Assembly (NCBI RefSeq): GCF_030160635.1
Contig: NZ_BSOS01000090.1
Span: forward strand, 62,001 to 126,000
Reading direction: 5' to 3'
Source: Acidocella aquatica
Lineage (GTDB): Bacteria; Pseudomonadota; Alphaproteobacteria; Acetobacterales; Acetobacteraceae
DNA: 64,000 nt
Each line of letters opens with the position of its first letter. Position 1 is the first letter of the stretch. A program made the position numbers and the translations under genes. Below the pieces are notes generated by a model that did not search any database, had not been told where the DNA came from, and worked only from the letters and a program-made list of their open reading frames with translations. This document shows positions 42,361 through 47,166 of this stretch, in pieces.

Positions 42361-42687
42361 ATGGAAAAAGACACGGCACTTGCCGCCCTTGGCGCATTGG
42401 CACAAGGCGCGCGGCTCGACATTTTCCGCCTGCTCGTCCAGGCCGGCAGTGATGGCCTGCCTGCCGGGCAGATCGCCGGGCGCCTCGGCCTGCCCGCCAA
42501 CACACTCTCCTTCCACCTCAACCAATTGCGTCATGCCGGGCTGATCAGCTTCCGGCGCGAAAGCCGTTCATTGATATACGCCGCTGAATACAGTGCCATG
42601 AACGCCCTGCTCGCCTACCTCACGGAAAACTGTTGCCAGGGCAATCCTGGCGCGTGCCTCCCGCCCAAGGAAATGAACCATGACTGA
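42361..42687 (+). CDS. arsR: ArsR-family arsenite-responsive repressor
   Basis: A 108-residue winged-helix repressor of the ars operon. HTH 'IAGRLGLPANTLSFHLNQL' and wing 'GLISFRRESRSLIYAAE' are typical. The classical ELCVCDL metal motif is absent ('GLPAGQIA' instead), but the C-terminus has Cys91, Cys92 and Cys99 in 'ENCCQGNPGAC'. This is the same CC...C tail that binds As(III) in Acidithiobacillus ferrooxidans ArsR, so arsenite sensing at the tail is expected. ATG directly follows an inverted repeat operator. It overlaps the next gene by 8 nt. Confidence 0.93.
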   Translation: MEKDTALAALGALAQGARLDIFRLLVQAGSDGLPAGQIAGRLGLPANTLSFHLNQLRHAGLISFRRESRSLIYAAEYSAMNALLAYLTENCCQGNPGACLPPKEMNHD

Positions 42688-43207
42688 ACGCGCCTACAAC
42701 GTGATGTTCCTCTGCACCGGCAACACCGCCCGTTCGATCCTCGCGGAATCAATCCTGCGCAAGGAGGGCGCCGGGCATTTCCATGCGTATTCAGCCGGCA
42801 GCCACCCCAAGGGCACAGTCAATCCCTTTGCGCTTAAAGTGCTGGAAAGCTTCGGCTACCCCACCACCGGCCTGCGTTCAAAAAGCTGGGACGAATTCTC
42901 CGCCCCCGGTGCCCCTGCAATGGATTTCATCTTCACCGTCTGCGACAACGCCGCCGGCGAGCTTTGCCCGATCTGGCCCGGCCACCCGATAACCGCGCAT
43001 TGGGGGATCGACGACCCAGCCGCCGTCACCGGCAATGACATTCAGATCGAAAAAGCCTTCGTGGAGGCCTTCAAATACCTGAAAAACCGCATCGGCTTGT
43101 TCCTGAGCCTGCCGCTGGCCAGCGTCGACAAGATGGCGCTGGGCACCAGGCTGCATGAAATCGGCCAAACCCCTGGCGCTTCATCCCATTCTCCCGGAGC
43201 TAAATAA
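42680..43207 (+). CDS. Low-molecular-weight phosphatase-type arsenate reductase
   Basis: A 175-residue protein of the LMW-PTP/ArsC fold. The P-loop 'MFLCTGNTARSILAES' (C-x5-R) holds the catalytic Cys; 'FIFTVCDNAAGELCPIWPG' supplies further Cys seen in thioredoxin-type ArsC enzymes. It would reduce arsenate to arsenite using a Cys cascade. It overlaps arsR by 8 nt and the next gene by 1 nt. Its strong position in the ars operon supports arsenate rather than protein phosphatase activity. Confidence 0.9.
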   Translation: MTERAYNVMFLCTGNTARSILAESILRKEGAGHFHAYSAGSHPKGTVNPFALKVLESFGYPTTGLRSKSWDEFSAPGAPAMDFIFTVCDNAAGELCPIWPGHPITAHWGIDDPAAVTGNDIQIEKAFVEAFKYLKNRIGLFLSLPLASVDKMALGTRLHEIGQTPGASSHSPGAK

Positions 43208-45443: not shown

Positions 45444-46550
45444 CTAAAACAGACTCATCTGCGCCACCGCCGCCCTTGCCGCAGGCGCCGCGAACTGCCC
45501 ACAATCCAGCGGCGCGCGCTCCTGGTTCAGTTGCAGTTGCCGCACCACCCGCTCCATCCTCTGCCCCAGCAGCGCCGCATACGGTCCGCTCCCCTGAAAA
45601 CGCGTGTGAAAATTCGGGTCATTCAACGCTCCGGCCCGGCTCTGACGGATAAGGCTCAGCACATGCCCCGCCCGCTCGGGCAGATGTTTGTTCAGCCAGT
45701 CTGAGAACAAATCCCCCAACTCATGCGGCAGCCGCAATAAAATCGTATGCGCGCTCAGCGCCCCGGCCTTCGCCGCCGCTTCCACGATGCTCTCCAACTC
45801 CGCATCGTTCAGCCCCGGGATCATCGGCGAAGCCAGCACACCCACCGCAATCCCCGCCTCCGCCAGCCCGGCGATCACCGCCAGCCGCCGCGCGGGCGAG
45901 GCCGCGCGCGGTTCCATGGCGCGCGCCAGCACTGGGTCCAGCGTGGTGATGGAAACATGCACCTGCGCCAGATTTTTCGCCGCCATACGGCTTAGAATAT
46001 CCACATCCCGCAACACGCCCGCTGATTTGGTAACGATGCTTACCGGGTGGTTGAACCGCTCCAGCACCTCCAGCAGGCTGCGCGTGATACTGAGCGTGCG
46101 CTCCACCGGCTGATACGGGTCGGTGTTCGACCCCAGCACAATCGTCCCCACTTTATATCCCGGCTTTGAGAGTTCCTTCTCCAGCAGCCGCGCCGCCTCC
46201 GGCTTGAAGACAATCTGCGTCTCGAAATCCAGCCCGGCGGAGTATCCCAGATACGCATGGCTCGGCCGGGCGAAACAATAGATGCACCCGTGCTCGCAGC
46301 CTCGATACGGATTGACGCTGCGCTCGAAGTTCAAATCCGGACTGTCATTGCGCGCGATGATGCTTTTCGCCGCATCGCGGATCAGCGTGGTCCGCGGCCG
46401 GCTCACCTCCTCGGGTAAATCCCAGCCGTCATCAAAAGCCTCCACCCGCGCGCGCTCAAACCGGTTCGGCGGATTGCGCGCCGTGCCCCGGCCTTTCCAA
46501 ACGCCGTGCTTAATATCCTGATTGATCTGTAGCCGGGAAACTGCCACCAT
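45444..46550 (-). CDS. PA0069-family radical SAM protein (spore photoproduct lyase-like)
   Basis: A 368-residue radical SAM enzyme related to spore photoproduct lyase and Rv2578c. The cluster motif is 'GCEHGCIYCFARPSHAYLG' (CxxxCxxC); other blocks are 'GTIVLGSNTDPYQPVER', 'VTKSAGVLRDVDIL' and 'LRLPHELGDLFSDWL', matching the PA0069 family. The substrate is not known, but a DNA repair role is the usual guess. ATG 46550 has GGAG 7 nt upstream; upstream in-frame ATGs exist. Two perfect SOS boxes (46551-46565 and 46602-46616) in its 76-bp promoter region suggest LexA control. Confidence 0.92.
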   Translation of the reverse strand: MVAVSRLQINQDIKHGVWKGRGTARNPPNRFERARVEAFDDGWDLPEEVSRPRTTLIRDAAKSIIARNDSPDLNFERSVNPYRGCEHGCIYCFARPSHAYLGYSAGLDFETQIVFKPEAARLLEKELSKPGYKVGTIVLGSNTDPYQPVERTLSITRSLLEVLERFNHPVSIVTKSAGVLRDVDILSRMAAKNLAQVHVSITTLDPVLARAMEPRAASPARRLAVIAGLAEAGIAVGVLASPMIPGLNDAELESIVEAAAKAGALSAHTILLRLPHELGDLFSDWLNKHLPERAGHVLSLIRQSRAGALNDPNFHTRFQGSGPYAALLGQRMERVVRQLQLNQERAPLDCGQFAAPAARAAVAQMSLF

Positions 46551-46565
46551 GTTCCTGCTCCGTTC
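46551..46565 (-). promoter_or_regulatory. LexA/SOS box 1 (alphaproteobacterial)
   Basis: GTTC-CTGCTCC-GTTC matches the alphaproteobacterial LexA consensus GTTC-N7-GTTC exactly. It lies immediately before the radical SAM start codon, covering its ribosome-binding region, in plus-strand orientation. On that strand it reads toward the moaB gene. Confidence 0.7.
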
Positions 46566-46601
46566 TGGTGGCATTAAGTCATTCCACCCCCGGCAAGTCA
46601 A

Positions 46602-46616
46602 GAACAAAATAAGAAC
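46602..46616 (-). promoter_or_regulatory. LexA/SOS box 2 (alphaproteobacterial)
   Basis: On the minus strand GTTC-TTATTTT-GTTC, an exact match to GTTC-N7-GTTC, 52-66 nt upstream of the radical SAM start codon where the promoter must be. The A/T-rich core is typical of functional sites. Confidence 0.8.
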
Positions 46617-46626
46617 ATCAGCCTTT

Positions 46627-47166
46627 TCAGCCGGTCAGATGTTCCTTGAGCCGCGGCATCAGCTCAACCAGATTGCAAGGCCGGTGGCGCGAATCGAGCT
46701 GGTAGCGCAAAATATCGTCCCAGCCATCCTTCACGGCCCCCGTGCTGCCCGGCAACGCGAACAGATAAGTGCCATTGGCCACCCCGCCCAGCGCCCGCGA
46801 CTGCATCGTCGAGGTGCCGATTTTCTGGTAGGAAAGCATCCGGAACAGCTCGCCGAACCCCTCGATGGTCTTCTCCAGCACCCGCGCAAACGCCTCGGGC
46901 GTCACATCCCGCCCGGTTATGCCGGTGCCCCCCGTGGTAATCACCACGTCTATATGCGGATCGGCGATCCAACCGCGCAGCCTCGCCTCGATCGCATCAG
47001 CCTCATCACGAATAATCGCCCGGGCGGCAACCACATGCCCGGCCGCGGCAATGCGAGCCGCCAGCGTGTCGCCCGAGGTGTCGTTTTCAGCGTTGCGCGT
47101 GTCCGAGATCGTCGCCACCGCGATGTGCACCGGGAGAAAAACCCTCGCCTCGTCAATCCGGTGCAT
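46627..47166 (-). CDS. moaB: Molybdenum cofactor biosynthesis protein MoaB
   Basis: A 179-residue MogA/MoaB-fold protein that adenylylates molybdopterin before Mo insertion. Key blocks are 'ISDTRNAENDTSGDTL', 'VVITTGGTGITGRDVTPEA' and 'TYLFALPGSTGAVKDGWDDIL'. It lies 6 nt downstream of the lytic transglycosylase gene in the same direction. Mo cofactor is needed by the SUOX-family enzyme at 24.4 kb and by other enzymes. The small intergenic space after it holds the SOS boxes. Confidence 0.94.
   Translation of the reverse strand: MHRIDEARVFLPVHIAVATISDTRNAENDTSGDTLAARIAAAGHVVAARAIIRDEADAIEARLRGWIADPHIDVVITTGGTGITGRDVTPEAFARVLEKTIEGFGELFRMLSYQKIGTSTMQSRALGGVANGTYLFALPGSTGAVKDGWDDILRYQLDSRHRPCNLVELMPRLKEHLTG

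Follow-up and report, generated by a model that had tools for sequence, protein, structure and literature searches.

The closest described systems are the splB-type genes, for which control by the SOS response was predicted in 2012 in alpha- and betaproteobacteria and not observed in gammaproteobacteria, according to the relevant parts of that study (PMC3323433). Passages in other papers term SplB SOS regulated in several species (PMC8565304), link SplB-like radical SAM proteins with SOS components (PMC3765255), include a radical SAM gene in a table of the Streptomyces LexA regulon (PMC9380542), report that mitomycin C induces a ‘DNA repair photolyase’ gene of Mycobacterium tuberculosis and that this induction depends on RecA (PMC8151990) and mention a SplB-like photolyase in Paracoccus, with LexA control left unstated in that passage (PMC3925955). 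The LexA motif of Caulobacter is given as GTTC-N7-GTTC (PMC12700426), and the words ‘photoproduct’ and ‘radical’ are absent from the main text of two Caulobacter papers (PMC12700426, PMC1839093). Likewise, the terms PA0069 and radical SAM do not occur in PMC3323433, and its relevant parts make no mention of paired operators. Since true spore photoproduct lyase (SPL; PF20903) was detected in 4 of 200 genomes of the phylum, all of one genus, the splB genes of that study probably correspond to the PA0069 family. Literature searches, which lay mostly outside subscription journals, returned nothing on PA0069 together with radical SAM or with LexA, on Rv2578c with LexA, or on LexA with Acetobacter and SOS box, and no earlier description of a double-operator arrangement for a radical SAM gene was found in the literature searched.

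The locus compared here lies in a window (the whole stretch of DNA that was analysed) of 64,000 nucleotides from Acidocella aquatica, and positions are those of the window. On its minus strand, positions 45444 to 46550 encode a radical SAM protein of 368 amino acids with the cluster motif C85-X3-C89-X2-C92, which belongs to the PA0069 family by its match to NF033668 (PA0069 family radical SAM protein; 496 bits, cut-off 360, model positions 1-348 of 348). The next NCBIfam model by score, the Rv2578c family radical SAM protein (NF038135), reached 209.9 bits and thus stayed below its 430-bit cut-off. Both PA0069 itself and Rv2578c are, we presume, members of published LexA regulons. The gene starts with ATG at 46550-46548, and three close relatives (L100, L156 and L296; 75, 65 and 75% identical) align from this codon, so that the gap between the stop codon of moaB, the co-directional upstream neighbour (46627 to 47166, minus strand; TIGR02667, 249.3 bits), and the start of the radical SAM gene is indeed 76 bp, as a preliminary description had held. 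An alternative in-frame ATG at 46574 would place the first of the two sites discussed below (46551-46565) within the reading frame; it has no counterpart in the sequence of the three relatives, each of which carries GAAC-N7-GAAC ending 0-3 bases 5′ of the start codon.

Into this gap the same description had placed two exact LexA boxes of the form GTTC-N7-GTTC, and both were recovered as exact matches, GTTCCTGCTCCGTTC on the plus strand at 46551-46565 and GTTCTTATTTTGTTC on the minus strand at 46602-46616. Reading along the gene strand, one meets the moaB stop (46627, outside the putative switch), a predicted upstream LexA operator O1 (GTTCTTATTTTGTTC, 46616-46602), a −35 element TTGACT (46601-46596) that abuts O1 and of which TTGAC is well conserved, a spacer of 17 bases, a predicted −10 element CTTAAT (46578-46573), a predicted downstream operator O2 (46565-46551; GAACGGAGCAGGAAC on the gene strand, that is, GAAC-N7-GAAC), and directly after it the ATG at 46550. 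The −10 assignment is our own and is weak; A and T stand at two positions of this region in 60-80% of the family loci. O2 is predicted to cover the transcript start and the ribosome-binding site. The O1 spacer is A/T at 7 of 7 positions, like that of the recA box, and so resembles the five other SOS-type boxes of the genome (5 to 7 of 7), which the O2 spacer, with 2 of 7, does not. Exact boxes also precede lexA, recA and uvrA in Acidocella aquatica, and one lies between SRAP and a umuC-type polymerase; lexA and recA carry the same box in the same genome (L028, L047). Two further exact boxes of this genome were seen in passing, one, the last of the five just compared, about 116 nt before a Peptidase_S24-domain gene, possibly a second LexA-like repressor (L007:1501-1515), and one about 53 nt before the gene of a TrcR (DUF1013-type) cell-cycle regulator (L058:2059-2073).

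Single boxes are close to chance level in the window, where three exact ones were found against 1.2 expected and 11 of 100 shuffles reached three; genome-wide there are 73, against 43 for the reversed pattern. The third exact box of the window (42675-42689) falls in the overlap of the frames of an ArsR-type regulator and an arsenate reductase and is probably a chance match. Being near chance, the single-site counts for window and genome were dropped as evidence, and relatives were therefore compared. Within the family (Acetobacteraceae), NF033668 was matched in 117 of 150 genomes, 110 of them above the cut-off, and the set used comprises 110 of the 111 over-cut-off places, including the window's own; the remaining place (L380, genome G098) has the operator pair as well. 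In the region that reaches from 300 nt before the extrapolated start to 20 nt past it, 107 of the 110 loci have an exact box, where other words and spacings gave 0-7 of 110. Within 600 nt upstream the count is 108 of 110 (controls 2, 6 and 9), and conservation of GTTC-N7-GTTC before this gene in related Acetobacteraceae, which the preliminary description had named as a check on its reading, was thus found. The sole misses, L076 and L082, belong to one genus and show no exact box in the stretch scanned; they have lost the boxes, have kept TTGAC before the gene and have an RNase HII-type gene directly downstream.

The search was extended to the phylum, in which 171 of 398 genomes exceeded the NF033668 cut-off. 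Ninety loci were used: 60 had been picked across families before the upstream DNA was examined, and the other 30 were the best matches, 26 of which came from two families; the sets of loci overlap partly, and relatives are non-independent samples. In other families of the same class the alpha box preceded the gene at 54 of 60 loci, at none in the opposite orientation, and was absent at 6 (5 if scanned to 600 nt). In other classes of the phylum GTTC-N7-GTTC was found at 0 of 30 loci and CTGT-N8-ACAG at 19 (20 when the scan runs to +80), with controls at 0-1, which leaves 11 loci with no box (10 when scanned to +80). A third LexA-type motif sought in these 11 gave nothing common to more than four of them; in a longer stretch one (L254) has CTGT-N8-ACAG and another (L238) has a TTAG-N6-TACTA motif. 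In named genomes, where the 80 best of at least 596 matches were used, 61 loci have the alpha box and 7 the gamma box, every one of the six Pseudomonas loci being in the latter group, and 12 have neither, the longer stretch included. A box that switches with the class of its host is hard to explain other than by LexA, and since it is kept in relatives and replaced by the class-matched box elsewhere, control of the PA0069-family radical SAM gene by LexA appears very probable, as does its being switched on by DNA damage. The membership in the SOS response put forward earlier is, at the level of sequence comparison, strongly supported by the same observations.

More specific than the single box is the inverted pair, which occurs once in the Acidocella aquatica genome. 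Two exact inverted boxes within 300 nt were found at 67 of the 110 family loci, in no case in the opposite order, and their distance from start to start, searched from 40 to 62 bp, took only the values 49, 50, 51 and 52 (4, 23, 35 and 5 loci, respectively); such a narrow spacing can reflect promoter geometry or contact between two LexA dimers. Within a wider stretch, 71 of the 100 family loci that have a plus box carry the exact pair. Over whole genomes, 78 of 150 in the family have exactly one pair each, where the reversed-pattern control gave 0 in 150; 71 of these pairs stand at the radical SAM gene, 3 stand before fragments of it, and the remaining 4 point off the end of a contig. None of the 78 stands before any other gene, no gene being visible at the 4 contig ends. 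The pair is absent from the 60 loci of other alphaproteobacteria and the 30 from other classes, and present at ten of the 80 named loci (taken as the best from at least 596 matches); the titles of these ten give Acetobacteraceae, Rhodospirillales or unspecified Proteobacteria; Rhodopila, Pseudoroseomonas, Rhodovarius, Neoroseomonas, Roseomonas and Siccirubricoccus are here assumed to be Acetobacteraceae.

The two groups also differ in where the promoter sits relative to the box. TTGAC follows the plus box directly at 90 of 100 family loci as opposed to 0 of 54 loci in other alphaproteobacteria (counts that stay at 90 and 0 when the box nearest the gene is always taken), whereas TTG occupies box positions 5-7 at 4 of 100 and 39 of 54, respectively. 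Because these counts differ, two placements of the −35 element are suggested: within the one operator in other alphaproteobacteria and, in the family, just outside O1, where the far end of the promoter would have received an operator of its own. At 63 of the 70 loci with a pair, no more than 20 nt (median 6) separate the end of O2 from an in-frame start codon, and because the start codon adjoins it, O2 probably doubles as the ribosome-binding site.

This closeness to the start codon admits another reading, in which O2 is no operator and its GAAC...GAAC a by-product of having a ribosome-binding site next to a start codon, so that LexA would bind O1 only. It would account for the position of O2, mostly right before the start codon and with GGA/GGG runs like a ribosome-binding site, and for the lack of a second box at the family spacing in other alphaproteobacteria. 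A ribosome-binding site, however, needs no GAAC at both ends, and the exact 4-7-4 direct repeat is present at 71 of 100 loci, 48-52 bp from O1 and inverted to it. Moreover, the 29 loci with a plus box and no exact O2 do not form a gradual series: 5 have one, 2 have two and 22 have 3-6 of the 8 positions wrong, so that O2 is mostly either there or gone. We therefore consider the by-product reading improbable. Still further from the data is the notion that a genome of 4 Mb simply contains such boxes by chance, which the single sites of the window, lying near expectation, might seem to favour; set against the comparative counts and the conservation found in relatives, it is barely credible. In the preferred reading, that of a promoter between two operators, the 76 bp would form a sigma70-type promoter of the PA0069-family radical SAM gene with a LexA operator on either side, the −35 element beginning where O1 ends and O2 beginning at about the presumed transcript start and extending to the start codon. 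In the undamaged cell LexA would occupy O1 and O2 and keep the promoter shut; upon damage, RecA-driven cleavage of LexA would free it, and the SPL-like enzyme produced would act on damaged DNA, presumably with a hydrogen donor other than the cysteine of SPL. As a whole, a promoter between two LexA operators that drives an SPL-like, damage-linked radical SAM enzyme is, judging from the sequences compared, a likely explanation. Counting against it are the GC-rich O2 spacer in the window, the 29 loci without an exact O2 and the loci at which no box was found.

What the enzyme does is approached here through its predicted fold. A structure model built from 68 sequences has a mean pLDDT of 83.2 and a pTM of 0.83, with residues 1-23, 42-46 and 69-74 below 50, and all six of its best Foldseek matches in the PDB, with E-values between 1.5e-7 and 1.7e-6, are spore photoproduct lyase; after them come other radical SAM enzymes, among them NifB and SkfB, which modifies peptides. 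SPL (4fhc and its mutants; PF20903) is thus the closest solved fold and shares the CX3CX2C cluster motif, but identity to the window protein is 16-17% and the TM-score by query length 0.46-0.53. Sequence searches of the PDB gave no match at E 0.001 and, up to E 10, unrelated proteins, NifB (0.53) and SkfB (0.013). The cluster cysteines C85, C89 and C92 are present in 200 of 200 aligned members, and no other cysteine is conserved. The catalytic C140 of SPL, located through the C140A and C140S chains, stands three residues before an Asp; at position 141, its counterpart by motif (A-A-C-T-S-D against G-S-N-T-D) and not by full alignment, because the profile comparison (hhalign) with true SPL spans only residues 186-286, a cysteine is found in 0 of 200 members (T72, S67, A35, I13, V6, G5, M1, P1). 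With no cysteine counterpart to C140, SPL chemistry seems unlikely for the PA0069-family enzyme, and since SPL is nevertheless the closest predicted fold, repair of a lesion is plausible.

Gene neighbours say less, and the counts are lower bounds because the flanks extend to at most 2.5 kb. A link to tag, which the preliminary description had noted close by, was rejected: among the 110 family loci tag was a neighbour at the window's own only, and it was found at just one of the 80 named loci, so that it is not conserved. Uracil-DNA glycosylase lies within these flanks at no fewer than 3 of 110 family loci, 3 of 60 in other alphaproteobacteria and 1 of 80 named loci. The moaB gene recurs at 30 of 110 family loci (that of the window included), 15 of 60 in other alphaproteobacteria, 32 of 80 named loci and 0 of 30 in other classes. 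A co-directional ORF from a single cluster, of which one member was scanned and proved to be RNase HII, lies directly 3′ of the gene at 45 of 279 loci (10 of 109, 16 of 60, 19 of 80 and 0 of 30, in the same order), and a functional link between this RNase HII-type ORF and the radical SAM gene is possible. A general clustering of neighbours was overwhelmed by shadow reading frames and gave way to these direct tests.

Two other views of the enzyme have to be set against action on damaged DNA. It might be a true spore photoproduct lyase that merely came under SOS control through O1 and O2, in keeping with the fold, with the name splB that the literature gives to such genes, with weak PF20903 matches in 12 of the 68 members (best 1.5e-5) and with the profile comparison (E 3.2e-5 over residues 186-286). 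The protein of the window itself has no PF20903 match, however, none of the 200 members has Cys at position 141, conservation among cysteines is limited to the three of the cluster, and in a non-sporulating lineage we know of no obvious source of spore photoproduct, so that we give this view little credence; a true SPL (PF20903) was not found in the Acidocella aquatica genome either. Somewhat less remote, though still unlikely, is an SOS-regulated enzyme whose substrate is RNA, protein or a small molecule. The fold matches next in rank, NifB and SkfB among them, and the recurrence of moaB would suit such a substrate, but the six best matches are all SPL, the LexA boxes are kept across classes and the ORF cluster with its RNase HII member hints at DNA. 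That the enzyme works on damaged DNA and takes its hydrogen from a donor other than the SPL cysteine is in our judgement about an even bet. More speculative, and held only tentatively, is the wider proposition that the gene provides a core SOS function of the Pseudomonadota, reversing a lesion by radical chemistry without the SPL cysteine, and that in the Acetobacteraceae-like family it would be uniquely double-locked, with O2 serving as ribosome-binding site too, since uncontrolled expression would be costly.

Compared with what has been described, SOS control of splB-type genes was already predicted in 2012, and membership in the SOS response is therefore not new in kind. What looks new from these alignments is the conserved, gene-specific double operator around the promoter, and likewise the apparent absence from the PA0069 family of the catalytic cysteine of SPL, which raises the question of what role a widespread, probably damage-induced radical SAM enzyme plays without the cysteine on which SPL depends. 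The loci also offer a natural series for studying how an SOS promoter is tightened, from one operator with TTG inside, to two flanking the promoter, to their loss in one genus. In the relevant parts of PMC3323433, as here, a SplB-like gene is predicted to be LexA regulated in classes with different LexA motifs; the trait went unseen there in gammaproteobacteria, whereas in the present set the gamma box precedes the gene at six Pseudomonas loci. Promoters with more than one LexA site are known elsewhere; at this locus the two sites stand about 51 bp apart with the predicted promoter between them.
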